A stretch of 64,000 nt of DNA from Elainella sp. Prado103 (GTDB taxonomy: Bacteria; Cyanobacteriota; Cyanobacteriia; Elainellales; Elainellaceae). The notes beneath the pieces are model-generated. The model saw only the letters and a list, made by a program, of their open reading frames with translations, searched no databases and was not told where the DNA came from. Shown here one piece after another: positions 7,601-56,297 of the stretch (positions are counted from its first letter, which is position 1; each line of letters starts with the position of its first letter). The position numbers and the translations under genes are program-made. The stretch covers positions 124,001-188,000 of the forward strand of contig JALOOM010000001.1 in the NCBI GenBank assembly GCA_025454395.1, read 5' to 3'.

Positions 7601-8653
7601 GTGATCCCTTTAGTTTCGGTGATTATTCCCACTTACGGCCGAGAGCAAGTGCTGCAAGAAACGATCGCCAGCGTACTGCAACAAGACTACCCCCACTATG
7701 AAGTGATTGTGGTGGATCAGACCCGCCACCATGAGCCTGCGACCCAGTCCTATCTTCAGGGCTTAGCAGCGACTGCAAAAATTCGCTGGTTTCAAGTCAG
7801 TTGGGCTAGTTTGCCTGGGGCTCGCAATTACGGCGTGCGTCGATCGACGGGTGAAATTATTGTATTTCTAGATGATGATGTCGTGCTGCCTGCTGGATTT
7901 ATTGCAGCCCATGTCCAAAACTTTGATCGCCCCGAAGTAGGAGCGGTGGCTGGACGCATTTTCGATCGGATGAAATTGGCCGAAGCAGAGGCAGATTTGG
8001 TGATTGAAGATCTGCCACCGGAGGCAATGGATCCGGGGCTCGCTTGGCATCACCTCAACCTGGTACATACAATCAAACCCCAATGGGTGCTAACCGCACG
8101 GGGTTGCAATATGTCATTTCGCCGCATTCTATTTGACCAGCATCAGCTCTGGTTTGATGAGCGGTTTCAAGGCAGTGCCGTTCGAGAGGAATCAGACTTC
8201 TGTTTGCGGATTCGTTCCACGGGCTACCAAATCTGGTATGACCCAACTGCCCATCTGGTTCATTTGGGAGAAGAATCAGGCGGTTGCCATGACATCAGTA
8301 CCCGATCGTTGGAATACCAAATTACCTTCTATCACAACAACTTTCTAATGGCATTGAAAAACCTCACGCCTCAGCAGTTCTTGCATTTAGCATCCGAACT
8401 GTACCGCTGTCAGGTGATGGGTCGGCCACCCTGTCATAAAAGTGGCTCTCCCATTCGTGTGCTGAGCCGATCGATCTTCTATGGGATTGGTTTTCTTAGC
8501 GCAGTCTTCACCTTATTCCGTTCACCCTGGCAAGATGGGCAGGTTTATAGTCAGCTCGATCGGCTGGAGCTTTCAGCCAATCCAGCACAGCAGGATCCAG
8601 CGCCGCTACAATTAGACCCAGCCGATACAGCTAGAATTGGGTCTAGAATTTAA
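7601..8653 (+). CDS. hpsN: HpsN-like family 2 glycosyltransferase
   Basis: A 350-residue GT-A glycosyltransferase. PLVSVIIPTYGRE opens the nucleotide-binding fold, DQT replaces the usual D-x-S, and FLDDDV (about 87-92) is the DXD metal site. RGCNMSFRR and EESDFCLRIR (ED acceptor region) follow. A hydrophobic segment at about 285-305 may associate it with the membrane. It would transfer a sugar from an NDP-sugar during exopolysaccharide assembly. Family pattern and position after the HpsL-like gene suggest hormogonium polysaccharide HpsN. Translation starts at GTG with a consensus ribosome site. The 3-prime end is an imperfect repeat of TAGAATTTA that also contains the stop of the opposing PRC-barrel gene. 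Confidence 0.7.
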   Translation: MIPLVSVIIPTYGREQVLQETIASVLQQDYPHYEVIVVDQTRHHEPATQSYLQGLAATAKIRWFQVSWASLPGARNYGVRRSTGEIIVFLDDDVVLPAGFIAAHVQNFDRPEVGAVAGRIFDRMKLAEAEADLVIEDLPPEAMDPGLAWHHLNLVHTIKPQWVLTARGCNMSFRRILFDQHQLWFDERFQGSAVREESDFCLRIRSTGYQIWYDPTAHLVHLGEESGGCHDISTRSLEYQITFYHNNFLMALKNLTPQQFLHLASELYRCQVMGRPPCHKSGSPIRVLSRSIFYGIGFLSAVFTLFRSPWQDGQVYSQLDRLELSANPAQQDPAPLQLDPADTARIGSRI

Positions 8654-8665
8654 CGGGATTAGAAT

Positions 8666-9013
8666 TTAGCGCATGGCATTGCCCAGCATCTGAGGATCAA
8701 ACGCGGGTAGGGCTTCTGCTTGTTCTTTGCTAACCCCTTCTGCATAAACACGGCGTTGATCATGATCTAAACGTACCTTATCTACTGGCAATAGTACGGA
8801 GCGTCCTGCAATCCCGGATCCTAAATTAACCACTATGTATTGCAGTTCTCCAGCTTCGTTTACCAGAACATCACTGACTGTGCCCAGCCGTTCTTCAGTT
8901 TGATCGGAAAGCACGCCAGCAACCAAATCAGAATGAACATCAAAGCCTTTAATTTGATACTTTTCTGACTGAAGTTGGGAAGCATCGAATTGATCAAATA
9001 ACATCAGTGCCAT
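8666..9013 (-). CDS. PRC-barrel domain protein
   Basis: A 115-residue single-domain protein. GTVSDVLVNEAGELQYIVV (about 44-62) is the typical PRC-barrel beta-sheet core, followed by LLPVDKVRLD. The PRC-barrel occurs in RimM and in the H subunit of photosynthetic reaction centres; stand-alone copies in cyanobacteria have no settled function. It faces the hpsN-like gene, with 12 bp between the stops, and interrupts the hps-like gene run on the other strand, so it is unlikely to be co-transcribed with it. Confidence 0.8.
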   Translation of the reverse strand: MALMLFDQFDASQLQSEKYQIKGFDVHSDLVAGVLSDQTEERLGTVSDVLVNEAGELQYIVVNLGSGIAGRSVLLPVDKVRLDHDQRRVYAEGVSKEQAEALPAFDPQMLGNAMR

Positions 9014-14392: not shown

Positions 14393-15364
14393 ATGTCTGA
14401 GCAGTCCGATCTCCCGCTAGTCGGTGGCATCGAAGCGGGTGGTACCAAGTTTGTCTGTGCCGTCGGACGCGATCCCACTGATGTAGCGCAGCCAGTTAAT
14501 CGGATCGAATTCAGTAGCCAAACGGGGTCGCCCGATCAGGTATTGGCTCAGGTGATCGGCTGGTTTCGGCAACAGGAAAAGCGTCTGGGGCAACCACTCG
14601 CAGCGATCGGCATTGGCTGTTTTGGCCCGATCGATCGGCATCCTGATTCACCAACCTATGGCCATATCACCACCACGCCTAAACTAGGTTGGGGCAATTT
14701 CGATATGGTGGGGGCGATCCGGCAAGGCTGGCCGCACATTCCGATTGAATTTGACACGGATGTGAATGCCGCTGCCTTCGGTGAATATCGCTGGGGAACG
14801 GGTCAAGGTTGTGAGGATTTTGTTTACATCACGATCGGTACCGGCATTGGCGGTGGGGCGGTGGTGGGTGGCCGATTGCTGCATGGGCTGGTTCATCCCG
14901 AAATGGGACACATGTTGTTGCGACGGATTCCGGACGATCCGTTCCCAGGTCTTTGTAGCCGCCATGGAGCCTGTTGGGAAGGGTTATGCAGTGGGCCAGC
15001 CATTCACGCCAGAGCTGGCCGATCGGCGATCGAATTAGATCCTGCTGATCCTGCCTGGATTTATACTACGCGCTATACTGCCTATGCTTTGGCCAACCTG
15101 ACCTGCATCCTGTCTCCCCAACGCATCATCCTGGGGGGTAGCGTTCGCAAAGGCGGCCAACTAGGAGAAACCCGATTTATGCAGCGAGTTCGCGAAGAAG
15201 TGCAAACCGCTTTAGCGGGCTACATTGTCTCGCCGCTGCTGCAAGCTGGAATTCAAGATTATATTGTGGTGCCCCAGTTGGGGGATGATGCTGGGGTTTG
15301 TGGCGCGCTAGCATTGGCACTAGAAAGGTTGCAAAACGCCGAGGTGGCAGAATGCGACCTCTAA
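14393..15364 (+). CDS. ROK family sugar kinase (fructokinase-like)
   Basis: A 323-residue ROK-fold kinase. GGIEAGGTKFVCAVG is the N-terminal phosphate loop, GIGCFGPID the sugar-binding strand, DTDVNAAAFGE carries the catalytic aspartate region, and TIGTGIGGG is the second phosphate motif. The zinc site is complete: a His in PEMGHM followed by CSRHGACWEGLC. This resembles ROK fructokinases, which phosphorylate fructose (from sucrose) at C6, but mannose or glucose cannot be excluded. The reading frame ends with GCGACCTCTAA, and this end is the first unit of a 12-bp tandem array. Confidence 0.85.
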   Translation: MSEQSDLPLVGGIEAGGTKFVCAVGRDPTDVAQPVNRIEFSSQTGSPDQVLAQVIGWFRQQEKRLGQPLAAIGIGCFGPIDRHPDSPTYGHITTTPKLGWGNFDMVGAIRQGWPHIPIEFDTDVNAAAFGEYRWGTGQGCEDFVYITIGTGIGGGAVVGGRLLHGLVHPEMGHMLLRRIPDDPFPGLCSRHGACWEGLCSGPAIHARAGRSAIELDPADPAWIYTTRYTAYALANLTCILSPQRIILGGSVRKGGQLGETRFMQRVREEVQTALAGYIVSPLLQAGIQDYIVVPQLGDDAGVCGALALALERLQNAEVAECDL

Positions 15365-15413
15365 CGTGACCTCTAACGCGATCTCTAACGCGACCTCTAA
15401 CGCGACCTCCAAC
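15354..15413. repeat. 12-bp tandem array that includes the ROK stop codon
   Basis: GCGACCTCTAAC is repeated five times (15354, 15366, 15378, 15390, 15402) with single-base variants. Copy one holds the last codons and TAA (15362-15364) of the ROK gene, so the array looks as if it grew by duplication of the gene end. Since the unit is a multiple of three, every copy but the last (CTCCAA) repeats the stop in frame. Confidence 0.95.
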
Positions 15414-25248: not shown

Positions 25249-26094
25249 TCAAGCATTGAGGGCGATCGATGGCAACAGTCGAGCTGCCAAAATACCTCCT
25301 ACGAAGCCGAACAGGTGCGCTTCCCAGGAAATACCGAGCTGCTTGGGCAGAATACCGGGTAGCAAATTCCAGTAGAATCCTCCCACGGTCAGGGATAGAA
25401 TCAAAGACAACGGATTGCGATCGAAAAAGCTAATAAACAATAAAAAGCCCAAATAGCCAAAAATTACACCACTGCCGCCCAAATGCACGAGTTCGATCGG
25501 ATAGAGCTGCCGTTCGGTGAGAGCATAGACCCGTCCTCGCCCAAACAACCAAACTCCTAAGCCACTGGAGAGAGTAACGATCCCAGAAACTAGCCAGAAA
25601 ACTGGTTCGCCATAAAGGAGTACCATCCAGCCAAACACTACAAATCCAAGGGAATTGCCGAAGAGATGGGTGGGATCGCCGTGGAGTAAGGGCGCAAACA
25701 CGATCCCCAGCAGACCAACCTGGGTGCGAGGGCGGATCGCCAACCAGTCCATGGCTCGGCCTAAAATAGCCCAGTTCAAAATATTAACGGCCCAGATCAC
25801 GGCCAAAATTTCTTGCAACAGGGTTAACCTGGGTCGCCAGTCGCCGATCGCTCTGGGATCAACTAGGCTGGAAGTGAGCACCCATGGGGAAGCCCATGCC
25901 CCGATTATTGTGCCGATCGGTGTGCCGATCATTGTGCCGATCATTGTGCCGATCGGTGTGCCGATCATTGTGCCGATCATTGTGCCGATCATTGTACTGA
26001 TTGAGAATTCACGACCAGGTAAACCTGCAATCCCATTGCTCACCCAGGATCCAATCATCCATTGGGACATCAACCCATGTGCCATCAACCCCAT
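25249..26094 (-). CDS. rhomboid family intramembrane serine protease
   Basis: A 281-residue membrane protein. Six hydrophobic segments follow residue 90. The catalytic serine is in LVHLGGSGVIFGY (GxSG motif) and the catalytic histidine in SWEAHLFGFVGG; HGDPTHLFGNSLGF carries the His/Asn of the oxyanion region. It would cleave membrane-anchored substrates within the bilayer. The N terminus is odd: residues 35-66 are tandem MIGT/PIGT tetrapeptides coded by a 12-bp array, and many of these have their own ATG, so the start is ambiguous. A GTG at 25881 after the array would give about 210 residues, closer to the minimal rhomboid length. Confidence 0.85.
   Translation of the reverse strand: MGLMAHGLMSQWMIGSWVSNGIAGLPGREFSISTMIGTMIGTMIGTPIGTMIGTMIGTPIGTIIGAWASPWVLTSSLVDPRAIGDWRPRLTLLQEILAVIWAVNILNWAILGRAMDWLAIRPRTQVGLLGIVFAPLLHGDPTHLFGNSLGFVVFGWMVLLYGEPVFWLVSGIVTLSSGLGVWLFGRGRVYALTERQLYPIELVHLGGSGVIFGYLGFLLFISFFDRNPLSLILSLTVGGFYWNLLPGILPKQLGISWEAHLFGFVGGILAARLLPSIALNA
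25897..26004. repeat. 12-bp in-frame tandem array in the rhomboid N terminus
   Basis: Nine 12-bp units, mostly TGTGCCGATCAT or TGTGCCGATCGG, run from 25897 to 26004 with the end copies diverged. On the minus strand they encode ATG ATC GGC ACA, i.e. repeated Met-Ile-Gly-Thr, with Pro in place of Met in the GG variants. Length changes would keep the frame. Confidence 0.95.
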
Positions 26095-28303: not shown

Positions 28304-28460
28304 TTAGTTGGCTGTCACTTTAAGTTAGCTGTCACTTTAGTTAGCTGTCACTTTAGTTAGCTGTCACTTTAGTTAGCTGTCACTTTAGTTAGCTGTCACT
28401 TTAGTTAGCTGTCACTTTAGTTGGCCGTCACTTTCACTTTGGTTGGCTGTCACTTTGGTT
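28304..28460. repeat. 16-bp tandem array, nine copies
   Basis: Nine copies of TTAGTTAGCTGTCACT. The GTCACT core starts at 28314, 28331, 28347, 28363, 28379, 28395, 28411, 28427 and 28449, so the six middle steps are exactly 16 bp. Copies 3-7 are identical; the outer ones carry substitutions, a pattern of growth from the centre. Confidence 0.97.
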
Positions 28461-28480
28461 GAACGGTCAGTTGATCGATT

Positions 28481-28519
28481 GGTTGGGCTGTATAGTTGGG
28501 CTGTATGGTTGGGCTGTAT
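28481..28519. repeat. 13-bp tandem array, three copies
   Basis: GGTTGGGCTGTAT at 28481, 28494 (one change) and 28507, followed by a partial GGTTGG. It is separate in sequence from the arrays on both sides. Confidence 0.93.
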
Positions 28520-28573
28520 GGTTGGACTTGGGTTAAGGTTATCGATTCTGTTGAACTTACTTTTGTTAACGTT

Positions 28574-28648
28574 GACTTTTCAGGGTCAGACTTTTCAGAG
28601 TCAGACTTTTCGGGGTCAGACTTTTCGGGGTCAGACTTTTCGGAGTCA
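28574..28648. repeat. 15-bp tandem array, five copies
   Basis: GACTTTTCGGGGTCA with A/G variants at two positions is repeated at 28574, 28589, 28604, 28619 and 28634. It contains near-palindromic GAC...GTC ends, but no spacer DNA. Confidence 0.96.
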
Positions 28649-28654
28649 ATGGTT

Positions 28655-28709
28655 CTTTTCTGAACTTGCCTTTTCTGAACTTGCCTTTTCTGAACTTGCC
28701 TTTTCTGAG
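28655..28709. repeat. 15-bp tandem array, 3.7 copies
   Basis: CTTTTCTGAACTTGC is repeated at 28655, 28670 and 28685, with a partial copy to 28709. It begins only six bases after the preceding array but has a different unit. Confidence 0.96.
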
Positions 28710-30067: not shown

Positions 30068-30117
30068 TGATGTTGCTGACTTGATTGATCGCTGATGTTG
30101 CTGACTTGGTTGATCGC
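30068..30117. repeat. 25-bp direct duplication
   Basis: A 25-bp unit starting TGATGTTGCTGACTTG and ending TTGATCGC is present at 30068 and 30093 with one difference. Its last bases (TGATCGC) become the start of the following 14-bp array. Confidence 0.95.
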
Positions 30118-30177
30118 TAAGGACTGATCGCTAAGGACTGATCGCTAAGGGCTGATCGCTAAGGGCTGATCGCTAAA
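30111..30177. repeat. 14-bp tandem array, five copies
   Basis: TGATCGCTAAGGAC at 30111 and 30125, the GGGC variant at 30139 and 30153, and a partial copy to 30177. The first unit overlaps the end of the 25-bp duplication, so this array seems to have grown out of it. Confidence 0.96.
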
Positions 30178-30193
30178 GCGGTAATCCTAATGT

Positions 30194-30253
30194 TTCTGGA
30201 TGTTGAGCTTCTGGATGTTGAGCTTCTGGATGTTGAGCTTCTGGATGCTGAGT
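30194..30253. repeat. 15-bp tandem array, four copies
   Basis: TTCTGGATGTTGAGC at 30194, 30209 and 30224 with a diverged fourth copy to 30253. It lies about 120 bp upstream of the RTX gene. Confidence 0.96.
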
Positions 30254-30370: not shown

Positions 30371-31681
30371 ATGATTTTTGGCACTGTTCAAAACGATACG
30401 CTGATCGGTGGCATTACTGATGAGGCGTTTTATGGCGATCGAGGTGATGATGTGCTTTATGGTGGATCGGGCAACGACTGGCTATTTGGTGGCGAAGCGC
30501 ATGATCAACTCTATGGAGAGGCTGGCATGGATGAACTCCATGGTGAAGCGGGCAACGATCAGCTTTGGGGTGGGGAGGATGCGGACAAGTTGTTTGGTGG
30601 TGAAGGTGAGGATGTCCTGTTGGGTGAGTGGGGTGATGATGAGTTGCATGGTGAGGCCGGGACTGATCAACTCTTTGGTGGAGCGGGGCTAGATGCACTG
30701 TATGGGGGCACCGGCGATGACCTCCTGAATGGTGATGCTGAGGCAGATATCCTATACGGCGAGGCGGATCATGACACCCTATTCGGTGGCAGTGGTGAAG
30801 ATGTTCTGTTCGGGGGAGAGGGGAACGATCGGCTCAATGGCGACCTCGATCAGGATCTCCTCTATGGTGAGGCCGGGGATGATCAGCTTGACGGGGGCGA
30901 TGGGGATGATAGTCTCTATGCCGGTGAGGGCAACGATCTGCTAAATGGGGGCAATGACCATGATTTCCTGTATGGCGAAGCGGGCCATGATCAATTGTTT
31001 GGCGGAGCGGGCGACGACGCGCTTCATGCCGGTGAAGGAGATGATCAGGCATCGGGGGATCAGGGCAATGATCTCCTCTACGGTGAAGCCGGGAGCGATC
31101 TGCTGCTAGGTCAATCTGGTGATGATCAGCTCTATGGAGGTACCGAAGCCGATCGCCTGGAAGGTGGAATTGGCCAAGATACGCTCTATGGGGAAGCGGG
31201 GCAGGATGTTCTGCTGGGGCAGTCGGGAGACGATCGCTTAGATGGTGGGAGTGAGGATGATGTCCTGGTCGGTGGCAGTGGCAACGATGTGCTGATCGGC
31301 AGTGTCGGCAATGATGATCTAACGGGAGGAGTTGGACAAGATCGGTTCATCTACAACACCCGATCCCCATTTGCTGCAGCGGAAATTGGGCTAGATCAGA
31401 TCCGTGACTTCAGTGCTGGGCAAGACAAATGGGTGCTCAGTTTGACCACCTTCACCCGGTTACAAACCACTGGCAATCAACTGGTTCCGGCTGATTTTGC
31501 GGTGGTGCAGCAAGATCGATTCGCCGATCGATCGCGGGCAGTCTTGGTTTACAACGCTAGAAACGGCAAGCTATTCTACAATGCCGATCGCGCTACGCCT
31601 GGTTTGGGTGCCGGTAGCCATTTTGCCACCCTCACGAATCTACCGACATTAACAGCTACCGATTTCACCTTAGTTGCGTAG
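30371..31681 (+). CDS. RTX (hemolysin-type calcium-binding repeat) protein
   Basis: A 436-residue protein from ATG 30371. After a dozen residues it consists of about 34 uninterrupted nonapeptides of the GGxGxDxLx type to about residue 330, which fold as a Ca2+-loaded beta-roll. The last 100 residues (from DRFIYNTRSPF) form the cap domain seen in cyanobacterial RTX proteins and contain RDFSAGQDKWVL. No enzymatic domain and no N-terminal signal peptide are present. Export by a type I system through the C terminus is likely, but no such system is nearby. From the second LxGEAG nonamer the units carry GEA exactly every four nonamers (36 residues). GTG 30350 is an alternative start adding seven residues. 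Confidence 0.88.
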   Translation: MIFGTVQNDTLIGGITDEAFYGDRGDDVLYGGSGNDWLFGGEAHDQLYGEAGMDELHGEAGNDQLWGGEDADKLFGGEGEDVLLGEWGDDELHGEAGTDQLFGGAGLDALYGGTGDDLLNGDAEADILYGEADHDTLFGGSGEDVLFGGEGNDRLNGDLDQDLLYGEAGDDQLDGGDGDDSLYAGEGNDLLNGGNDHDFLYGEAGHDQLFGGAGDDALHAGEGDDQASGDQGNDLLYGEAGSDLLLGQSGDDQLYGGTEADRLEGGIGQDTLYGEAGQDVLLGQSGDDRLDGGSEDDVLVGGSGNDVLIGSVGNDDLTGGVGQDRFIYNTRSPFAAAEIGLDQIRDFSAGQDKWVLSLTTFTRLQTTGNQLVPADFAVVQQDRFADRSRAVLVYNARNGKLFYNADRATPGLGAGSHFATLTNLPTLTATDFTLVA

Positions 31682-31815: not shown

Positions 31816-32193
31816 TTAAACTTCCGGCTCTACAACTTGCGTCAGTTCAATGACATTACCGTCTGGATCTTGCGTAAACAGGGCAGGTCTACCGGAAGCA
31901 CTCAACTGCACTTCATAGCCCTGCTCGATCAACACTGCTTTTGCCGCTTCCAGATCCTCTACTGCCAGCGCCAGATGGGGATTGCGACCCCACTTTTCAG
32001 CATTTTGGAGATTCCACTTCAGCTCAGTATCCACAATCAGATGGATCTGGGTAGAACCGAGTTCATACCAGACTCCTGGATATTTGAGACTGCGATCGAT
32101 TTTGGTTAACCCCAGCACCTGGCTATAAAACTGTTCCGATCGGGCTAAATCGGCGACTAGAATTGCAGTATGAAGGTAATGGGTAATTTTCAT
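31816..32193 (-). CDS. VOC superfamily (glyoxalase/bleomycin-resistance fold) protein
   Basis: A 125-residue protein with two beta-alpha-beta-beta-beta modules. MKITHYLHTAILVADLARSE opens module one, ending at IHLIV; HLALAVEDLEAAKAVL opens module two, ending at FTQDPDGNVIEL. The His in HTAIL, the His in IHLIV, HLALAV and the Glu in VIEL fit the four metal-ligand positions of VOC enzymes. The substrate is unknown. GGAGGA lies just upstream of ATG 32193, which rules out the longer open frame to 32349. The start codon overlaps that of the divergent redoxin gene within CATG. Confidence 0.85.
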   Translation of the reverse strand: MKITHYLHTAILVADLARSEQFYSQVLGLTKIDRSLKYPGVWYELGSTQIHLIVDTELKWNLQNAEKWGRNPHLALAVEDLEAAKAVLIEQGYEVQLSASGRPALFTQDPDGNVIELTQVVEPEV

Positions 32194-32773
32194 GGTCTCC
32201 TCCCTCGTATTGGATGGTTTGTTTAGCCGACGATCGATACAAAACTGGTTGCCCATTCCGGCGACGAACCCATTGCCGATCGGTACGGTCGTGCCCCTGA
32301 TCGACCCGCTCAATTTCGAACTCCACCATGTGGCCACTCGGCAACGCATCCGATTAACGGACTATCTCGGTCAGTCTGATTGGCTCTTGCTCGCATTCAC
32401 TCGCATTTTCAGCGCCAAGCAATATTGCCCGCTGTGCTACCCTCATATTCTGGAATTGAATGCAACCTATGAGCAACTGCAAGATCGAGGAATTGAAGTG
32501 CTGATGATTACCAGCACGGAGCTACCCCAGAGTGAAATTGTGCTTCAGGATCTGGGGCTTAAAATGCCACTCTTGAGCGATCCCAGTCGAGCCAGTTTTC
32601 GGGACTATCAGGTGGGACAAGCGTTAGGAGCACCTTTACCGGCTCAGTTTCTGCTGGATGCGACTGGACGATTAATCTTCAAGCATTTGTTTTCGTTTAT
32701 TGAACCCAATGCCAGCCTGGATCGAGTGCTGGCGGCGATCGATCGGGTCAGGTTGGAGATGCCGCACCACTGA
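32192..32773 (+). CDS. redoxin (AhpC/TSA-like peroxiredoxin family) protein
   Basis: A 193-residue thioredoxin-fold protein. FTRIFSAKQYCPLCYPHI (about 70-87) carries a CxxC pair at the active-site helix. EVLMITSTELPQSE and the downstream LGLKMPLLSDPS and GAPLPAQFLLDATGRL are conserved in a cyanobacterial peroxiredoxin-like family whose members begin with a similar LFxxRxxxNxLPIPAT leader, so the ATG at 32192 is supported. It probably reduces peroxides or acts as a thiol oxidoreductase in the cytoplasm. Its start codon overlaps the start codon of the VOC gene on the other strand by two bases. Confidence 0.78.
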   Translation: MVSSLVLDGLFSRRSIQNWLPIPATNPLPIGTVVPLIDPLNFELHHVATRQRIRLTDYLGQSDWLLLAFTRIFSAKQYCPLCYPHILELNATYEQLQDRGIEVLMITSTELPQSEIVLQDLGLKMPLLSDPSRASFRDYQVGQALGAPLPAQFLLDATGRLIFKHLFSFIEPNASLDRVLAAIDRVRLEMPHH

Positions 32774-32834
32774 TTTCAAGAAAAGATTAATTTCAAGAAA
32801 AGATTAATTTCAAGAAAAGATTAATTTCAAGAAA
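32774..32834. repeat. 17-bp tandem array that includes the pyk stop codon
   Basis: TTTCAAGAAAAGATTAA is repeated three times exactly (32774, 32791, 32808), with a partial fourth copy at 32825-32834. The partial copy contains the stop codon of pyruvate kinase (minus strand, 32829-32827). The whole gap between redoxin and pyk is this array. Confidence 0.97.
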
Positions 32835-34608
32835 GGGCAGAATCGGTTTGAACTGAATTCATACCGGAATAAACCAGACCACGTTGCATATCCAGGGTGA
32901 GAATGGTGCCATCACGAATCACATGGGTGGCATCCTCAACGCCCACAATGACTGGAACACCTAGCCGTAACCCGATCACGGCCGCGTGACTGGTCAGACT
33001 ATCTTCTTCCGTGACAATACCAGCGGCTTTACGAATAGCATCGACATACTCGGCGCTAGTTTTCGATACCACCAAAATTTCGCCGGCATGAAAGCTATTC
33101 AGATCGCTAACCGTATGGGCCACCCTGGCTCGACCACTGACCGATCCCTGACCAATCCCGGTGCCCTTACCTAACACAGCCGTCACCAGTTCCACCTTAA
33201 TCAGATCGGTGGAGCCTGAAACCCCTTGCAGAGTACCTGCTGTCATCACCACTAGGTCGCCTTGCCGGAGCAAGCCTTTCTCTTGGGCCACATTCAGCGC
33301 AGCCAAAAACGTTTGGCCGGTGGAATGGAGATCTAAAACTAGCAAAGGTCGAACTCCCCAGACGAGCTGAAGCTGACGAGCCACATCAACATGAGGCGTG
33401 ACGGCCAAAATGGGCTTATTCGGGCGAAACTTGGAGACATTGCGAGCGGTCGCCCCCGTTTTGGTCAGGGGCATGATGGCTGCTGCCTGAAGTTGTTCAG
33501 CAATCCGACCAACCGCTTGGCTGATCGCATTTGGGATCGATCGACCAGGTACATTTTCAAAGGTGCGATTGGGAGCCTGTTCCCGTTCGATCCGTTCGGC
33601 GATCCGGGCCATGGTTTCAACGGCCTGCACCGGAAACTTACCCACTGCGGTTTCGTTGGATAACATAACGGCATCGGTGCCATCCAAAATGGCATTGGCC
33701 ACATCGGAAATTTCAGCCCGGGTCGGACGGGGATTGCTGACCATGCTATCCAACATCTGAGTGGCCGTAATTACCGGAATCCCCAACCGATTGGCCGTAG
33801 CAATTAGGCGTTTCTGCAAAATGGGTACATCTTCGGCAGGCAATTCTACCCCCAAATCGCCCCGGGCCACCATCACGCCATCACACAGCGATAAGACGGC
33901 TTCCATTTGCTCGATCGCCTCATGCTTCTCAATTTTGGCGATCACAGGGACATTCTTGCCTGCACTGGAAATCAGTTCTTTAATTTCCAATACATCCTGG
34001 GGATTGCGCACAAAGCTGAGTGCAACCCAATCGACTCCCTGATCTAAGCCAAACATCAAGTCTTCTTTGTCTTTATCCGTCAAGGCCCGAATAGATAGAT
34101 AAACTCCAGGGAAGTTCACCCCTTTGTTATTGGAAAGCACCCCCCCCACCACGACTCGACAGTGGAGTTCGCGGGCTTGACGATCCACTTGTTCAACCAC
34201 CATTTCTACCCGTCCATCGTCCAGCAGGATTGTGGCACCTGCGGGAACTTCGTCCGCGAGGGGTTCGTAGGTGACTGCACTGATCTCCTGGGTGCCAGGG
34301 ATGAGTTGGCTAGTCAAGATGAAGGGATCGCCCTTCTGGAGAGTGATTGCCCCATGCTCAAACCGCCCTAAGCGGATCTTGGGCCCCTGTAAATCTTGGA
34401 GAATTCCGACCGGCTGGTTTAGCTCAAACGAAATCTGCCGAATCAGCCGAATGTTGCGCTGGTGATCGTCATGGGTACCGTGAGAAAAATTGAGCCGTAA
34501 TGTGGTTGCCCCTGCCTCAATGAGTTCACGCAGTACTTCTGGACTGCTCGTGGCGGGACCGATGGTTGCCACAATCTTGGTTCGACGTAGGGTGGGTTGT
34601 AGTTGCAT
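32827..34608 (-). CDS. pyk: pyruvate kinase with C-terminal PEP-utilizer domain
   Basis: A 593-residue enzyme from ATG 34608. It converts PEP and ADP to pyruvate and ATP. RRTKIVATIGPATSSPE opens the barrel, MVARGDLGVELP and ITATQMLDSM are active-site segments, and IAKIEKHEAIEQM contains the catalytic lysine region. Beyond the usual 470-480 residues, residues about 490-590 form a PEP-utilising mobile domain with EEDSLTSHAAVIGLRLGVP, including the TSHAA histidine motif; this extra domain is typical of cyanobacterial and some Bacillus pyruvate kinases. The frame extends to 34659, but those 17 codons run into repeats. The stop lies in a 17-bp tandem array. Confidence 0.95.
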   Translation of the reverse strand: MQLQPTLRRTKIVATIGPATSSPEVLRELIEAGATTLRLNFSHGTHDDHQRNIRLIRQISFELNQPVGILQDLQGPKIRLGRFEHGAITLQKGDPFILTSQLIPGTQEISAVTYEPLADEVPAGATILLDDGRVEMVVEQVDRQARELHCRVVVGGVLSNNKGVNFPGVYLSIRALTDKDKEDLMFGLDQGVDWVALSFVRNPQDVLEIKELISSAGKNVPVIAKIEKHEAIEQMEAVLSLCDGVMVARGDLGVELPAEDVPILQKRLIATANRLGIPVITATQMLDSMVSNPRPTRAEISDVANAILDGTDAVMLSNETAVGKFPVQAVETMARIAERIEREQAPNRTFENVPGRSIPNAISQAVGRIAEQLQAAAIMPLTKTGATARNVSKFRPNKPILAVTPHVDVARQLQLVWGVRPLLVLDLHSTGQTFLAALNVAQEKGLLRQGDLVVMTAGTLQGVSGSTDLIKVELVTAVLGKGTGIGQGSVSGRARVAHTVSDLNSFHAGEILVVSKTSAEYVDAIRKAAGIVTEEDSLTSHAAVIGLRLGVPVIVGVEDATHVIRDGTILTLDMQRGLVYSGMNSVQTDSALS

Positions 34609-35002
34609 GGTTGCTCTGAGCGAAGAACGAAGCCGATGGAGCGCGTGACGGTTGAGCACAGCTTAGCGGTTGGGCGCAGCTTAGCGGTTGGGTGCGTTGG
34701 CGATGGGCGCAATCTGACGGCTCTGAAGGGGCAAAAGGGATACTATCACGTTTAGTGAATGGCTTTATCAAAAACTCGCAAGTTTCAGCGATCGATTCAT
34801 CAATCGACTGAGTCACCCTGGTAGAATCTCTGGCTTGATCCACGCCGATTAAACAGTCTGCATGAGGTTTCGGAAGGCACTTCGATAGAATTTAGGAAGT
34901 CTGTTGACTCGTCATGAGATTATCTCGTCATAAGATTATCTCGTCATATTGATTGACTCATTGACTCATTGATTGACTCACCAGTGTGAGCAGGAGAATT
35001 GG
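34609..35002. other. divergent region pyk / fatty-acid hydroxylase with small repeats
   Basis: It contains two copies of CAGCTTAGCGGTTGGG 18 bp apart (34658 and 34676), two copies of CTCGTCATGAGATTAT-type 16-mers at 34908-34939 followed by a third start, and a run of GATTGACTCATT words up to 34981. These repeats reach almost to the ribosome site of the hydroxylase gene. No ORF is supported. Confidence 0.65.
34908..34981. repeat. 16-bp repeats followed by ATTGACTC words
   Basis: CTCGTCATGAGATTAT (34908) and CTCGTCATAAGATTAT (34924) are followed by CTCGTCATATT and then three ATTGACTCA words to 34980. The cluster makes up the leader of the hydroxylase gene. Confidence 0.85.
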
Positions 35003-36404: not shown

Positions 36405-37035
36405 GGTTCAGGACTCCTTTGACAGAGAATTGCGCTTCAGACTCAGTGACTCAAGCATCTGGGTGACGTTCCAGTTCTCTTCACTACAGCCAATATAGGC
36501 GGCAAACTGCGGTCACGTCAGTAAAACTGCGGAGAGTTTTTCTAATCTTTGAACTGCATCAAGCTTTGATGAAGCTTCAAGTGAAAGTGGCTACAGACAA
36601 GGATCTTAGCCAATCTTAAGGGAAGACAAAGCCTACCGAAACCGACTTTAGGGAGGAGCATAGAACGAAGTTTAACTGCTACCAGCATTCCCGTAGAAAG
36701 AAACAGACTAACCACAAGGATGGATCGGTGTAGATAGGCATTGGGTCAGGGTAATAGGGTAGGAACTGCCGTGACCTGCTAGCAAGTTGAAGTGTTATGA
36801 ATTGGTATAAAAAAGACTGCCTCAGTGTTACTGGCAGGGTGGCGCTAGCAAATGGTGCTTAACTGAATCTCGATAGGATGGAAAAGAATTGCGATATCCG
36901 TTCAAGATCTTGTTATCTTGTTGAGTGGTTTAGCTGGCTGGGCACTCTACGGAAGAATAGCGCTGAGGTTTGATTGCTTTTGTCCTGCACCTGCCTCAGT
37001 TGGGTGAACTCCTTTGCAGGACATCTCTATCCACC
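36405..37035. other. 630-bp divergent region, no gene called
   Basis: It separates the sugar transferase and HpsJ-like starts. The word AAACTGCGG appears at 36502 and 36525 (23 bp apart), and AAGCTTTGATGAAGCTT at 36560-36576 forms a small inverted repeat. No tRNA, no known riboswitch and no credible ORF were seen. Long leaders or a small RNA are possible but unsupported. Confidence 0.5.
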
Positions 37036-37854
37036 ATGAAAATTGGCAGCTTCTTTTCTCATCCCTATCAGTCATTGATCCTGAAAACCGCAGGTGTGAT
37101 TCTGATTTTGGGAACCCTGGTAGACTACTTGATGCTGACGATCCCCCCTGATTTCCTCAATAGTGAATGGTTGGCAAGTCTGATCAGTGACTGGGTTGCC
37201 CGTGGGGCAGTTCCCTTGTTAGGAGTTGCACTTCTGTTTCTGGGCGTTTGGTTTGAGCCTGAGGCTTCTCAGCGGGCGAAGAAAGACTGGATCCCATTGC
37301 TGGCTTTTGTCGTTTCGGCGTTGCTGGGGATCGCTTTTCTCGTCTTAGCACCCCTTTACTTCAACAGTAGCCGTTTATTCAGTGCAGCCCAAACACGCCA
37401 AATTAACGATCAGGCAGACCTATACCGCGATCGATTGGGTGCCTTACTAGAGCAGCAGAAAGCACGGGTGAGTGCGATCGTATCCAATGAAGATCAGTTT
37501 TCTGAACTGCAAAATCAGTTGAACAATCTTGATTTGTCGGATGAACAACAAAATCAGTTGCGCCAAATTAAAGCGACGCTGGATCAGGTGAAATCCGATC
37601 CCAAAGCGCTCGATCGAGAAGTAGAGAAAGCCCGTACGGAAGGTTTGAAGCAAATTGAAACTCAGCAGCAAGAAGCCTTAGCGAAGGTACAATCTGAACT
37701 GCGGCGCGATCGATTTCGCGTGACCTTATCTAGCTTGCTATTCTCTGGTGGCTATTTAATGATTGCTTGGCTTGGTTTGGGAGGTAATAGAAGTCAGTCA
37801 CCCGCCTCAAATCGACGCAAAGATCGCAAACCCAAGCGGGCAGCCAAGCAGTAG
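37036..37854 (+). CDS. HpsJ-like membrane protein
   Basis: A 272-residue protein from ATG 37036. Three hydrophobic segments (about 15-35, 52-72 and 86-108) precede a long charged coiled coil (about 120-220, rich in Gln, Glu and Lys) and one last membrane helix near 230-250, followed by a basic tail. LVDYLMLTIPPDFLNSEWLA and VPLLGVALLFLGVWFE match the conserved N-terminal part of the cyanobacterial HpsJ family, which is linked to hormogonium polysaccharide secretion or to exosortase systems. Its molecular role is unknown. The upstream extension of the frame (36970) is not preferred. The last codons start a seven-copy tandem array. Confidence 0.65.
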   Translation: MKIGSFFSHPYQSLILKTAGVILILGTLVDYLMLTIPPDFLNSEWLASLISDWVARGAVPLLGVALLFLGVWFEPEASQRAKKDWIPLLAFVVSALLGIAFLVLAPLYFNSSRLFSAAQTRQINDQADLYRDRLGALLEQQKARVSAIVSNEDQFSELQNQLNNLDLSDEQQNQLRQIKATLDQVKSDPKALDREVEKARTEGLKQIETQQQEALAKVQSELRRDRFRVTLSSLLFSGGYLMIAWLGLGGNRSQSPASNRRKDRKPKRAAKQ

Positions 37855-37951
37855 GGCAGCCGAACCGTGGGGCAGCCAGAAGCAGTAGGGCAGCCGAACC
37901 GTGGGGCAGCCAAACCGTGGGGCAGCCAAACCATGGGGCAGCCGAACCGTA
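37838..37951. repeat. 16-bp tandem array that includes the HpsJ-like stop codon
   Basis: Seven units of GGGCAGCCGAACCGTG type start at 37838, 37854, 37870, 37888, 37904, 37920 and 37936. Copy one encodes the last residues (AAKQ region), and TAG sits at the border of copies one and two (37852-37854). Unit three has two extra bases. The array ends seven bases before the spoT stop and so fills the gap between two convergent genes. Confidence 0.96.
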
Positions 37952-37958
37952 GTTGAGA

Positions 37959-40241
37959 CTAATCTTCGGACTGGCTGACGCGGCGCAGATTCAGCACATC
38001 GCTCATCTTCCGAATTTGAGTGAACGTGCGCTCCAGTTGTTGGTGATCGATAATATCAATCACCAATTCAATCACAGCGGTCTGTCCAGGATAGGTTTTG
38101 ACTTGGGCACTGCGCACGTTGATGTTGTAATCACTCAGACGCGACAAAATATCTTTCAGAACTCCAACTCGATCGATCACCTCAATCAAAATATTGACTG
38201 GATAAGTTTGAGGGCGAGCTGGGGTTTCGGCAGTGTTCCAACTGACGGGAATCAGGCGTTCACCCGGAATCGGTTCTACGTTGTGACAGCCTTGCCGATG
38301 GATGGAAATGCCACGACTACTTCCCAGCGTAACGACCCCAATAATAGCCTCACCGGGGACAGGGTTGCAGCATCTGGCTAAACTGTAGAGCAGACCTTCT
38401 ACCCCCACAATCGGAGAAGCTTTGCTCGATCGAACCGCCGGGGACGGTGAACTGACTGGGTGTAATAGGGTTTTAGTGGGTTCTTCTTTGGCAACTGGAA
38501 TGATGGGCTGACGGGCTTTAATCGCCTCTCGCAATCGGTTGAGCGCCAAGTTGAGGGTGACTTCTCCATAGCCGATCGCCGCCAGCAGATCTTCAGGGGT
38601 CTGATAATTGCAGCGTTCGGCAGTGACCTGCATCGGTTCGGATTTCATCAGGGCTTCAAATCCGCGCTTACCCAATTCCTTTTCTAACATTTCCCGTCCG
38701 CGCAGGATATTAGCATCGCGATGGGATCGCTTATACCATTGTCGAATTCGGTTTTTAGCACTGGGGGTGACTGCAAAATTTAACCAATCCAGGCTGGGAT
38801 GGGAATTTTTCTGGGTAATAATCTCCACAATGTCACCGTTCTTCAGGGGCGTATCTAGCGTCACCATCCGATCGTTCACCTTTGCACCCGCACAGTGGTT
38901 GCCCACTTCTGTATGAATTCGGTAAGCAAAATCGATCGAGGTTGAACCCTGAGCCAGTGCGATCACATCCCCATTGGGAGTAAACACGTAAACATCGTCA
39001 TCAAACAGATTGCCCTTCACACTCTCCAGGTATTCCTGGGCATCTTTGAGGTCACTTTGCCAATCGAGCAATTGCCGCAACCAGGTGAATTTTTCATCGT
39101 CTGCGGTGAGCTTTGAGCTGCTATGACCGGCTTCTTTATATTTCCAATGAGCGGCGATCCCATACTCTGCCACATGATGCATTTCCATGGTACGGATCTG
39201 AATTTCTAGCGGTCGGCCGGTATTGCCAATTACAACGGTATGCAGAGATTGATAACGGTTGGGTTTAGGAAGCCCAATATAGTCTTTAAATCGGCCAGGA
39301 ATAGGACGAAAAGCATCGTGGACAACGGCGAGAGCCCGATAACACTCATCGTTGGTTTCGACAATAATGCGTAAGGCGGCAATATCATAAATTTCTTCAA
39401 AGCTTTTCTGTTGCCGCTGCATCTTCTGATAGATGCCATAAAGATGCTTGGGACGGCCGCTGATGTCGTAACAGTGGATGCCGAGTTGATCAAGCCGTTC
39501 GCGCAGCGTGATCGCCACCTGCTCCAAGCGATTCTCTCGATCGCTGCGTTTATCGGCAATCAACTGCCGGATGTGCTGGTAAGCATCGGGTTCCAGATAC
39601 TTAAATGAGATATCCTCTAACTCCCATTTAAACCGTCCAATTCCCAAGCGGTTAGCCAGGGGCGCAAAAATTTCCCGGGTTTCTAGGGCGATGCGACAGC
39701 GTTTCTCATCGGCGAGATGCTCGAGGGTGCGCATATTGTGGAGGCGATCGGCCAGCTTGACTACAATCACACGGATGTCTTGTGCCATGGCCAAAAACAT
39801 GCGGCGAAAATTTTCTGCTAACCGTTCGGTTTTGCTAGAAAAATTAAACTTCGAGAGTTTGGTGACTCCCTCCACCAACCGCCGCACCTCGGAGCCAAAT
39901 CGTTCTTCAATCTCCTCGCCCGTCACCTCTGTGTCTTCAATTACATCATGCAAAAAGCCCGCAGCAATCATGGCGGCACTGCCTCCCAAATCTCGCAATA
40001 GCCCAGCGACTGCGACTGGATGGGCAATGTAAGGTTCGCCAGAAGCACGGCGCTGCCCTTCGTGAAGTTGGTAGGCAAAGTTGAAGGCTTCGCACACCAA
40101 AGCTGCGTCTGAGAGTGATGCATCGACATTTTCACCCACGATTGGCGATCGATGCTCTAGAAGACAATCTTGCAACCAATCAGGAAGTACCAAATCGGAG
40201 GGAAGGGTTCGCGTCACAGTTGCTACATTCATCGCTGCCAA
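37959..40241 (-). CDS. spoT: bifunctional (p)ppGpp synthetase/hydrolase (Rel/SpoT)
   Basis: A 760-residue long RSH protein. The HD hydrolase domain (about 55-190) has the metal motif in AGFLHDVIEDT and keeps the His-Asp pair, so hydrolysis is likely. The synthetase domain (about 240-350) contains RPKHLYGIYQKM and IGLPKPNRYQSLH. TGS (about 400-465, beginning DDVYVFTPNGDVIALAQG) and a C-terminal ACT domain (about 680-755) provide ribosome sensing and regulation. It makes and degrades the stringent-response alarmone, here probably as the only long RSH, as usual in cyanobacteria. The second synthetase motif and the zinc-finger-like CCNPVPGEAI are intact. Confidence 0.95.
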   Translation of the reverse strand: MAAMNVATVTRTLPSDLVLPDWLQDCLLEHRSPIVGENVDASLSDAALVCEAFNFAYQLHEGQRRASGEPYIAHPVAVAGLLRDLGGSAAMIAAGFLHDVIEDTEVTGEEIEERFGSEVRRLVEGVTKLSKFNFSSKTERLAENFRRMFLAMAQDIRVIVVKLADRLHNMRTLEHLADEKRCRIALETREIFAPLANRLGIGRFKWELEDISFKYLEPDAYQHIRQLIADKRSDRENRLEQVAITLRERLDQLGIHCYDISGRPKHLYGIYQKMQRQQKSFEEIYDIAALRIIVETNDECYRALAVVHDAFRPIPGRFKDYIGLPKPNRYQSLHTVVIGNTGRPLEIQIRTMEMHHVAEYGIAAHWKYKEAGHSSSKLTADDEKFTWLRQLLDWQSDLKDAQEYLESVKGNLFDDDVYVFTPNGDVIALAQGSTSIDFAYRIHTEVGNHCAGAKVNDRMVTLDTPLKNGDIVEIITQKNSHPSLDWLNFAVTPSAKNRIRQWYKRSHRDANILRGREMLEKELGKRGFEALMKSEPMQVTAERCNYQTPEDLLAAIGYGEVTLNLALNRLREAIKARQPIIPVAKEEPTKTLLHPVSSPSPAVRSSKASPIVGVEGLLYSLARCCNPVPGEAIIGVVTLGSSRGISIHRQGCHNVEPIPGERLIPVSWNTAETPARPQTYPVNILIEVIDRVGVLKDILSRLSDYNINVRSAQVKTYPGQTAVIELVIDIIDHQQLERTFTQIRKMSDVLNLRRVSQSED

Positions 40242-48913: not shown

Positions 48914-49093
48914 TGGAGATCTACTCTGATGGAGAGTCACCAAGGGAGAGTCACCAAGGGAGAGCCGCCGTTGGATCGTCGATCGACCGAACTCGATCGG
49001 TTGCGACAATAGCGATCGAGTTCATCTGAATGATCTGATGACCGCCGGCGGGAATTACCCTGCAAGTTCTTGAGGCTTCAGGTTCTCGAGGCT

Positions 49094-49519
49094 TCAAGAT
49101 GAGAGCTTGACCACAAATACGGAGCAAGGCGCTGTTTCCACCACTTCACTGCTAACTGATCCTTGCAAAATTCGCTTCATCCCGGTTAAACCTCGGTTTC
49201 CCATCACGATCAAGTCAGCTTGATGGATATTGGCTAACCGGATAATTTCTTCCGCCGGATCGCCCATGACAATCTCTAACTCACTCTTGCAAGGCAATTG
49301 AGCCTGGTAGGCTTGTAGGCGTTCGAACTGCTGATGGGGCACCATTTCGGTGTCGGCTTGAGGACGATCGGCTGCAACATCTAGATCAGCTCCAGCGTTT
49401 GCTAAAACATGCGCTAGCACCACTTTAGCTGTTGCAGGTAGATGAAACTGCTCTAATGCTTCAATGACTTGCACCGACAAGTCAGAACCATCTAGTGCTA
49501 CCAGAACTTTGTGAACCAC
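49094..49519 (-). CDS. universal stress protein (UspA family)
   Basis: A 141-residue USP domain. KVLVALDGSDLSVQVIEAL begins the fold, HQADLIVMGNRGLTGMKRIL and GSVSSEVVETAPCSVFVV end it. The G-x2-G-x9-G-S motif (GNRGLTGMKRILQGS) indicates an ATP-binding member. The function in stress tolerance is inferred from the family only. Single gene between the hypothetical 48509 gene and hisD; a short duplication (GAGGCTTCA words near 49069-49097) covers its end. Confidence 0.9.
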   Translation of the reverse strand: MVHKVLVALDGSDLSVQVIEALEQFHLPATAKVVLAHVLANAGADLDVAADRPQADTEMVPHQQFERLQAYQAQLPCKSELEIVMGDPAEEIIRLANIHQADLIVMGNRGLTGMKRILQGSVSSEVVETAPCSVFVVKLSS

Positions 49520-51584: not shown

Positions 51585-51653
51585 TTAGAGCTAGATTTAG
51601 ATCTAGGTTTCTAAAAGTCTAGATGCAATTTCAGCTATGCAGTTGTTTCAGTC

Positions 51654-52445
51654 ATGCAGTTGATCGACACCCATGTCCATCTCAATTTTGAAAACTTTGC
51701 ACCGGATCTCGACCAAGTAGCTGAGCAGTGGCGCTCGGCTGGTGTCGTACGGTTAGTGCATTCTTGTGTCGAGCCTGCTGAATTTGACAGTATTCGAGCG
51801 ATCGCCGATCGTTTCCCTGAGTTGTCCTTTGCAGTAGGTTTGCATCCATTGGATGTGGAAAAATGGACTCCCCAGTCTGCTCAGCAGATCCTGCAACTGG
51901 CTCAGTCCGATCGGCGAGTCGTAGCCATTGGTGAGCTGGGATTGGATTTTTTTAAGTCTGATCGTCAGGCTTTACAGGAAGCGGTCTTCTGGGAACAACT
52001 GCTGATTGCTCACCAACTCAGCCTGCCTGTCATTATTCACTGTCGGGATGCTGCAGCTCGCATGGCCGAATGCCTTCGTGAGTTCAAGTCCCAGCATGGA
52101 TCGATCCAGGGAGTGATGCACTGCTGGAGTGGTACCCCAGAGGAAACGCAATGGTTTCTCGACCTTGGTTTTTACATCAGTTTCAGTGGGATTGTCACTT
52201 TCAAGAAAGCTGAAGCGGTTCAGGCGGCTGCCCAGATGGTGCCAAGCGATCGACTGCTCATCGAAACGGATTGTCCTTTCCTGGCTCCTGTGCCTAAACG
52301 GGGCGAGTCGCGCAATCAACCCGCCTATGTGCGATATGTTGCAGAGCAGGTCGCTAAACTGCGAGGTATGCCCTTGGAGGAGGTCGCCACCCAGACGACT
52401 TCCAACGCCTGTCGTCTTTTTGGGCTCTCACTGCCTGCTGACTAG
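51654..52445 (+). CDS. tatD: TatD family metal-dependent deoxyribonuclease
   Basis: A 263-residue TIM-barrel hydrolase. Metal ligands are present: [10 protein letters not shown] (HxH), IGELGLDF (Glu), VIIHCRDA (His), MHCWSG (His) and [10 protein letters not shown] (Asp). ETDCPFLAP near residues 203-211 and the closing [10 protein letters not shown] are TatD signatures. The family degrades DNA from the 3-prime end in repair or nucleic-acid turnover. Position between rpsT and rpoB is conserved in cyanobacteria. Confidence 0.92.
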
Positions 52446-52980: not shown

Positions 52981-55900
52981 ATGAGTAACCTAACCAAGCC
53001 AACATCTATGTTTACCCTGCCCGATCTGGTGGAAATTCAGCGAGCGAGTTTTCGCTGGTTTCTAGAAGAGGGGCTGATCGAGGAATTGGACAGCTTCTCG
53101 CCCATTACAGACTATACCGGCAAGCTGGAGCTTCATTTCCTTGGCAAAGACTATAGATTAAGACGCCCTAAATATGATGTTGACGAGGCGAAGCGGCGGG
53201 ACAGCACCTATGCAGTGCAAATGTATGTTCCGACTCGACTGATCAACAAAGAAACGGGCGAAATCAAAGAGCAGGAGGTTTTCATTGGCGATCTGCCGTT
53301 GATGACCGATCGGGGTACCTTCATTATCAACGGTGCCGAACGGGTGATCGTGAACCAGATCGTGCGGAGTCCTGGTGTTTATTACAAAAAAGAAATTGAT
53401 AAAAACGGGCGTAGTACCTTCAATGCCAGTTTGATTCCGAACCGGGGTGCTTGGCTCAAATTCGAGACTGACAAAAATGATCTGGTTTGGGTGCGCATCG
53501 ACAAAACGCGGAAATTGTCAGCTCAGGTGTTGTTGAAGGCTTTGGGGCTGAGCGATGGGGAAATCTTTGATGCCTTGCGCCACCCTGAGTACTTTCAAAA
53601 AACGATCGAAAAAGAGGGGCAATTCAGTGAAGAAGAAGCCTTGATGGAGCTATATCGGAAGCTGCGTCCGGGTGAACCACCGACTGTATCCGGGGGGCAA
53701 CAACTGCTGGATTCTCGGTTCTTCGATCCCAAGCGCTATGATTTGGGGCGCGTAGGACGTTACAAATTGAATCGGAAGTTGCGGTTGAGTGTGCCAGAAG
53801 CAACCCGAATCCTCACTCCCCAGGATATTCTGGCAGCGATCGATTACCTGATTAATCTGGAATTTGATCTGGGTCAAATTGATGACATTGACCACTTGGG
53901 GAATCGTCGCGTCCGATCGGTCGGTGAACTGCTGCAAAATCAGGTACGGGTTGGGTTAAATCGTTTAGAGCGGATCATCCGGGAGCGGATGACGGTCTCA
54001 GATGCCGATTCCTTAACCCCTGCTTCACTGGTCAACCCGAAACCGCTGGTTGCCGCCATTAAAGAATTTTTTGGTTCGTCTCAACTGTCCCAGTTTATGG
54101 ATCAGACGAATCCCCTGGCCGAATTGACCCACAAACGGCGCTTAAGTGCCCTAGGCCCAGGGGGCTTGACGCGAGAACGGGCCGGATTTGCCGTGCGAGA
54201 TATTCATCCTTCCCACTATGGTCGAATCTGCCCGATCGAAACTCCAGAAGGTCCGAATGCTGGCTTGATTGGTTCGTTGGCCACCCATGCGCGAGTCAAT
54301 TCCTATGGCTTCATTGAAACGCCCTTTTATCGGGTTGAAGGAGCACGGGTGGTGCGGGAAGAAGCCCCTGCTTATATGACTGCTGATGAAGAGGATGATT
54401 TTCGGGTCGCAGCCGGTGACGTGTCTGTGGATGAGGCTGGTCATATCCTGGGCGAGCAAGTACCCATTCGCTATCGGCAAGAATTTACTACCGCTGCTCC
54501 AGACGAGATTGACTATGTGGCTGTTTCGCCAGTGCAAATTATTTCGGTGGCGACCTCATTGATTCCCTTTTTGGAACATGATGATGCCAACCGGGCACTG
54601 ATGGGATCGAACATGCAACGGCAGGCCGTACCTCTATTGCGTCCAGAGCGTCCTTTGGTAGGGACGGGATTGGAAGCCCAAGCGGCACGGGACTCGGGGA
54701 TGGTGATTGTCAGCCGTACCGACGGGGAAGTGACCTACGTGGATGCCAACCGGATCCGGATTCGTAACCCAGAAGGCAAGGAAGTCGAGTATCAGTTACA
54801 AAAGTACCAGCGTTCTAACCAAGATACTTGTCTGAATCAGCGCCCGATCGTCTTTGCTGGGGATCAGGTCGTGGCTGGGCAAATTTTGGCGGATGGATCG
54901 GCAACCGAAGGCGGTGAGCTGGCATTAGGACAAAATGTGCTGGTCGCCTACATGCCTTGGGAAGGTTACAACTATGAAGATGCGATCCTAATTAGTGAAC
55001 GCTTGGTCTGCGATGATGTCTATACCTCAATCCACATTGAAAAATATGAGATTGAGGCCCGTCAAACCAAGCTGGGGCCAGAAGAAATTACCCGTGAAAT
55101 TCCCAACGTAGGGGAAGATGCTCTCCGACAACTTGATGAAACCGGCATTATCCGAATTGGGGCCTGGGTAGAAGCAGGGGATATTTTGGTGGGTAAGGTC
55201 ACGCCTAAAGGGGAGTCCGATCAACCACCAGAAGAGAAGCTGCTGCGAGCAATCTTCGGTGAAAAAGCACGTGATGTCCGCGATAACTCACTGCGAGTCC
55301 CGAATGGTGAAAAGGGTCGGGTGGTTGATGTGCGGGTGTTTACTCGGGAGCAGGGCGATGAACTGCCCCCCGGAGCCAATATGGTTGTGCGCTGCTATGT
55401 CGCCCAAAAGCGCAAAATTCAGGTAGGGGACAAAATGGCGGGTCGCCATGGGAATAAGGGAATTATTTCTCGCATTCTCAGTCCGGAAGATATGCCTTAT
55501 TTGCCTGATGGTCACCCGGTAGATATTGTTCTTAACCCATTGGGAGTACCTTCCCGAATGAACGTGGGGCAGGTGTTTGAGTGTCTATTGGGCTGGGCTG
55601 GTCACAACTTGGGTAGCCGGTTCAAAATGATTCCATTTGATGAAATGTATGGTGCAGAAGCTTCTCGCCTGACGACCCATGCCAAAATTGACGAAGCCCG
55701 CCAAAAAACAGGGCAAGACTGGGTCTATAACCCGAATAATCCGGGCAAGATCCAAGTCTACGATGGTCGCACAGGAGAACCCTTCGATCGACCGGTGACG
55801 GTGGGTACGGCGTACATGCTGAAGCTGGTACACCTGGTAGATGATAAGATTCATGCGCGCTCCACGGGGCCATACTCGCTAGTCACCCAGCAGCCTCTGG

Positions 55901-56280
55901 GCGGTAAGGCTCAGCAAGGCGGACAACGGTTTGGGGAAATGGAAGTTTGGGCGTTGGAAGCCTTTGGGGCTGCTTACATTCTGCAAGAGCTGCTTACCGT
56001 CAAATCAGATGATATGCAGGGTCGGAATGAAGCCCTCAATGCGATCGTTAAAGGGAAAGCGATCCCGCGACCGGGTACACCAGAGTCCTTTAAAGTACTG
56101 ATGCGAGAATTGCAATCCCTTTGTTTAGATATTGCAGCTCACAAGCTTCAGAACCAGGATGATGGCACCAGTCGTGATCTGGAAGTCGATTTGATGGCGG
56201 ATGTGGGTAACCGTCGAACCCCCTCCCGGCCCACCTATGAGTCGATTTCTCGTGATGAGATGGAAGAGGTTGAAGATTAG
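52981..56280 (+). CDS. rpoB: RNA polymerase beta subunit
   Basis: A 1099-residue catalytic subunit, normal for cyanobacteria, where it lacks the large lineage insertions of enterobacterial Rpo[21 protein letters not shown] is the start. The rifampicin/fork-loop region includes [26 protein letters not shown], cut here to its ends at about residues 362-387, followed by [32 protein letters not shown] and the C-terminal [19 protein letters not shown] are intact. GAGGAG seven bases before the ATG is the ribosome site. The end of the gene is duplicated as a 13-bp unit containing the stop codon. Confidence 0.98.
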
Positions 56281-56297
56281 CACAGAAGATTAGCACA
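56272..56297. repeat. 13-bp duplication containing the rpoB stop codon
   Basis: GAAGATTAGCACA at 56272 and 56285. TAG of rpoB (56278-56280) lies in the first copy. Because the unit is not a multiple of three, the second copy repeats the stop in another frame. Confidence 0.93.

Follow-up and report, generated by a model that had tools for sequence, protein, structure and literature searches.

Across the 3' end of an HpsJ-family gene lies a tandem array whose unit includes the gene's own stop codon, and the question that this locus raises is whether such duplications are drawn to stop codons, kept there for a benefit, or simply tolerated. Our answer is that stop copying is tolerated, not targeted. 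In the window (the whole 64-kb stretch of DNA that was analysed), the preliminary description had named four main arrays, over the stops of a ROK-family kinase gene, the pyruvate kinase gene (pyk), the HpsJ-family gene and rpoB, and all four are recovered by TRF as stated. Its list was, however, picked from a larger set: it omitted a fifth stop overlap, one start overlap and 25 intergenic arrays, and a weak, diverged case that it placed at 8631-8670 gives no TRF array even at score 30. The arrays concerned are the following:

37838-37952: irregular array of 16 bp x 6.9 (81% match) or 32 bp x 3.5 (87%), which starts in the final codons of the gene for the HpsJ-family protein (36970-37854, + strand), copies its TAG stop and ends 7 bp away from the convergent RelA/SpoT gene (37959-40241, - strand), on the side of that gene's stop.
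15354-15413: array of 12 bp x 5.0 (89% match), which spans the TAA stop at the end of the gene for the ROK-family kinase (14393-15364, + strand).
32773-32834: perfect array of 17 bp x 3.6, which spans the TGA stop of pyruvate kinase (32827-34659, - strand); at 32773 the array also takes in the final stop base of the convergent AhpC/TSA gene (32192-32773, + strand).
56272-56297: perfect duplication of 13 bp x 2.0, which spans the TAG stop of rpoB (52981-56280, + strand).
49066-49096: array of 16 bp x 1.9, which reaches the stop of the gene at 49094-49519 (- strand) and is the fifth stop overlap.
51629-51662: array of 17 bp x 2, which covers the start called for a gene at 51654-52445 (+ strand) and is the only start overlap in the window.
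28304-28708: four neighbouring arrays with four units (16, 13, 15 and 15 bp), intergenic and away from stop codons.
30068-30252: three adjoining arrays with units of 25, 14 and 15 bp, intergenic, upstream of a gene called at 30371.

Altogether, the window holds 34 arrays at a TRF score of at least 50, composed of 25 intergenic and three intragenic arrays, five over a stop and one over a start. An array with a 12/36-bp unit at 25901-25995 lies in frame within a called gene (25249-26070, - strand), where a repeated peptide would be encoded.

The source genome is a 5.84-Mb draft in 157 contigs, 1.55 Mb (26%) of which was analysed in stretches, with genes called by a purpose-made hexamer model and not taken from a curated annotation; among its relatives, 0.40 Mb each was sampled from a same-genus genome (G002) and a same-family genome (G006). 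In or over the intergenic gaps of the 1.55 Mb, TRF finds 624 arrays (630 in the tally of units). At a TRF score of at least 50, array density is 581 per Mb in the source genome, 352 in G002 and 102 in G006, with a single array in 50 kb from E. coli K-12. For exact runs whose period is 10-18 bp, the rates are 0.436, 0.228 and 0.055 per kb in the source genome, G002 and G006, respectively, with a mean of 0.093 per kb over 80 cyanobacterial pyk loci. Chance is excluded as the origin of the arrays, because intergenic DNA simulated with a third-order Markov model yields only 1-2 arrays per 339 kb, as opposed to 576 wholly intergenic arrays and a further 80 over stops in the real sequence. A second lineage with such a duplication habit is represented by a genome from another family of the same class (G032), in which 12 kb of flanks (loci L018, L246, L274 and L294) contain 13 exact 10-18 bp runs with periods of 10-15 bp.

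The 630 arrays tallied have 630 distinct units, which bears out the earlier proposal that each array has its own unit and therefore reflects duplication in place rather than a mobile repeat. The hallmark of mobile or dispersed repeats of the MITE or REP-like type, a set of similar copies scattered over many loci, was not found among these 630 arrays, and the sharing of 9-mers among units is somewhat above that of shuffled units (473 vs about 390, of 629). With tandem units of about 10-60 bp present beyond chance and each unit specific to its locus, the arrays match locus-specific minisatellites and are candidate VNTRs.

How the arrays are placed relative to genes was assessed over the 1.55 Mb by reducing each array to a single unit, which was then moved to random positions among all those in contact with a gap. 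In this genome-wide count, which the preliminary description had itself proposed, stops are enriched over other intergenic positions (69 overlaps observed vs 30.0 expected, 2.3-fold) and starts are depleted (17 vs 31.4, 0.54-fold); when re-placement is restricted to the array's own gap, the values are 1.5-fold for stops and 0.45-fold for starts. A preference of duplication for precisely the stop is not supported, as the 0-44 nt past the stop are enriched too, 1.65-fold with placement in any gap and 1.25-fold within the own gap, and for exact repeats in the source genome the ratio of the stop to the adjacent 45 nt is 0.86-1.12 (p at least 0.49; p = 0.50 for the ratio of 0.86). With the looser TRF arrays this ratio is 1.2-2.1 (p = 0.01-0.27). 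A stop-specific peak is thus not robust, its outcome shifting with the definition of an array; there may be a small extra preference for the stop codon itself. What is present is a broad zone near gene 3' ends without a robust peak at the stop codon: first units start at an even rate, 3.4-4.8 per kb, between 15 nt inside the gene and 43 nt past the stop, and at roughly half that rate farther downstream. Where arrays begin inside a gene, 69 do so within one unit of the stop and five deeper. Near start codons, the source genome has arrays at 1.2-1.3 times expectation in the region 90-179 nt upstream (151 vs 119-123), and G002 has 2-3 times the expected number 15-44 nt upstream, in small numbers (19 vs 7.7).

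Why a stop codon can be copied at no cost follows from the geometry of the duplication. The sequence through the original stop stays intact when the duplicated segment holds the stop, so the protein is unchanged at any unit length. If such duplications are harmless, arrays should be cut off about one unit inside the gene, show no preference for frame and have the stop at a uniform phase within the unit. Inside genes, 182 of 186 arrays have a unit length that is a multiple of three, compared with 185 of 554 intergenic and 25 of 65 stop-overlapping arrays; likewise, of the exact runs of 10-17 bp whose length would break the frame, 371 lie in noncoding and three in coding DNA. Stop-overlapping arrays thus ignore the reading frame, as noncoding arrays do, the position of the stop within the unit is uniform (KS p = 0.41), and the stop types of the overlapped genes (TAA 24, TAG 23, TGA 17) match those of the genome (422, 360 and 280). 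The frame and position tests together uphold the weaker form of the original suggestion, that duplication is tolerated over gene 3' ends.

A further prediction of harmlessness is that the end of a gene is conserved while the array over it is not. Gene ends were compared with one genome per species, the intergenic DNA of relatives being too diverged for a comparison of copy number. The rpoB and pyk orthologues mostly end at the corresponding codon. The rpoB duplication is absent in 14 orthologues, including that of a same-genus genome (G001) with a 98% identical protein that ends at the same place, none of 24 orthologous pyk loci, duplicate records among them, has the pyk array, and the HpsJ-family array is absent at 12 orthologous ends. 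Pyruvate kinase from the source genome shares 94% identity with its counterpart in Elainella saxicola E1, whose record has the same pyk 3' end as G001; the source organism is accordingly closely related to Elainella, which comprises filamentous cyanobacteria. G002 matches a Pegethrix bostrychoides record (L154) at this end. The genus yielded no close orthologue of the ROK-family kinase (about 30% identity at best). Of the 91 distinct pyk ends compared, two carry an array across the stop codon, that of the source genome and an independent case in another genus of the family (G009, locus L282), in which a 22 bp x 2 duplication copies the pyk stop.

We consider it likely that a general duplication process combined with selective filtering accounts for these observations, stop copying being the expected edge of the intergenic class. 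A mutational process acting generally in this lineage would duplicate segments of 10-18 bp, most often 14-15 bp, head to tail in place and at no recognisable motif, and further copy gain would follow in part of the arrays. Survival would then be set by selection, which would accept any length in noncoding DNA and accepts, as the frame counts demonstrate, almost only multiples of three inside genes. A duplicated segment that holds the stop would be invisible to the protein and would survive as noncoding DNA does. Stop overlap would exceed the random intergenic level because arrays are more abundant throughout a zone that opens one unit before the gene's end and closes about 45 nt past it, and this richness probably reflects a constraint that is weaker there than around starts and promoters.

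The richness of this zone is also what a rival reading builds on. Gene 3' ends might be mutational hot spots, at which transcription termination, hairpins or R-loops past the stop disturb replication and provoke duplications. Such a model could draw on the 1.65-fold excess in the first 45 nt and on convergent gaps, where no promoter is expected and arrays nevertheless thin with distance from the stop (from 1.2 down to 0.6), a gradient that relaxed constraint alone does not obviously explain. Yet in-frame intragenic arrays show no excess between 150 and 61 nt before the stop (fraction of bases 0.004-0.006, vs 0.006-0.008 near starts), and unannotated genes hidden in long gaps would give an equal gradient, so that we judge a hot spot unlikely. 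Relaxed constraint or mutation may each be the cause of the 1.3-1.8-fold enrichment just after stops.

That arrays at stops are themselves selected, either as repeated stops that guard against readthrough or as spacers or terminators between genes, appears more improbable still, even though stop overlap at 2.3 times random intergenic placement is what one would look for. A benefit of repeated in-frame stops, raised in the preliminary description, is not supported by the 25 of 65 units divisible by three, which is about chance, or by the arrays at orthologous stops, which are not conserved; nor are particular stop codon types over-represented among the overlapped genes. Its other suggestion, a role in spacing convergent genes, lacks specificity, as 43 of the 69 overlaps lie in tandem (stop-to-start) gaps and 26 in convergent ones, with similar enrichment (2.30 and 2.13). 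Finally, the 157 contigs of the draft leave room for a wrong copy number in the longer arrays, but the notion that the arrays are assembly artefacts is hardly credible: artefacts would not respect reading frames, whereas out-of-frame runs number 371 in noncoding and three in coding DNA, nor would the copies within the window arrays be expected to have diverged (81-95% matches by TRF).

The less ordinary aspect of the arrays is the duplication spectrum, a hump at 10-18 bp that peaks at 14-15 with no boundary motif found. Noncoding exact runs with periods above 8 bp are unimodal, with most at 14 bp (94 runs), 15 bp (86) and 13 bp (80) and nearly none above 20 bp, and 7-bp runs make up 41 of the 766 noncoding runs. 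Coding exact runs in the same range occur at multiples of three only (12 bp, 61; 15 bp, 70; 18 bp, 15), at 0.23-0.39 of the noncoding density for in-frame runs. Among 167 simple two-copy duplications, neither a boundary motif nor an association with HIP1 was found; the GC content of the units lies slightly below that of their flanks (0.415 vs 0.457). Runs of 10-18 bp are mildly clustered, the nearest neighbour being closer than 60 bp in 0.28 of cases vs 0.16 at random noncoding placement; the adjoining arrays with different units at 28304-28708 and 30068-30252 fit this genome-wide clustering.

Replication slippage between microhomologies is the textbook source of tandem duplications. An overhang of only 0-2 nt is present in 127 of 325 two-copy runs, and the longer overhangs are partly decayed third copies (continuation-to-unit identity 0.55 vs 0.39); a general requirement for microhomology is not seen, while part of the cases may involve it. 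The molecular source could be slippage or the re-copying of a short staggered patch during repair. A size hump at 14-15 bp that shows no general dependence on microhomology suggests the second of these, with patches of a fixed length. Ku-dependent end joining is an improbable source, since the Ku domain (PF02735) has no match in the source genome or in four other genomes of its genus. One relative (G019) carries four Ku-domain genes in two divergent pairs (contigs C61 and C66) together with six ATP-dependent ligase matches; Ku was found in none of the other 39 genomes searched. The ATP-dependent ligase domain (PF01068) occurs in 22 of 40 genomes, the source included, and is not informative. 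As a tentative proposal, for which the odds seem to us somewhat below even, the lineage would harbour an unusually active, motif-free process, other than classical microhomology slippage, that makes set-size duplications (10-18 bp, with a mode of 14-15 bp). It would show in noncoding DNA and also in genes, there reduced to lengths of 12, 15 and 18 bp, with surviving in-frame duplications roughly one quarter to one third as dense as in noncoding DNA.

The apparent association with stop codons reduces to a simple rule, backed by the frame and position tests, that a duplication holding the stop cannot alter the protein. Moreover, 10-18 bp duplications are frequent enough (about two arrays per kb of noncoding DNA) for the size spectrum, in-frame survival in genes and possibly the molecular source to be measured.

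Stop-copying arrays as a class were found reported only in papers on Borgs and on TAACTGA repeats, in a literature search that lay mostly outside subscription journals. The tandem repeats of Borgs, which are archaeal, have perfect units that are strongly A-rich (48%) (PMC9879509). In contrast to these, copies in the source arrays diverge and a strong A bias is not seen (A 0.303 in units vs 0.264 nearby), and Borgs are linear extrachromosomal elements, whereas the source arrays lie on a bacterial chromosome; shared with Borgs is a unit length in multiples of three inside genes only (182 of 186 vs 185 of 554). Cyanobacterial STRR sequences are heptamer repeats. TAACTGA heptamer repeats occur in Beggiatoaceae and some Cyanobacteria, and 13 sets in one genome overlap the stop of the upstream gene (PMC4679880). 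Both resemble the source arrays as short intergenic tandem arrays, the TAACTGA sets also in lying over stops, but they have a 7-bp unit common to many loci, whereas the source arrays have a mode of 14-15 bp and 630 units that are all different. In eukaryotes, small tandem duplications arise by the fill-in of staggered breaks with single-stranded overhangs (PMC8355091). A comparable patch mechanism could set the unit size here, although the eukaryotic route requires eukaryotic factors and end joining, and the source genome has no Ku gene that was found. Bacterial minisatellites or VNTRs share with the source arrays locus-specific units of 10-60 bp, few copies and a location that is mostly intergenic or in frame within genes; the difference is one of density, with 581 arrays per Mb in the source genome compared with 102 in G006 and one in 50 kb of E. 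coli K-12.
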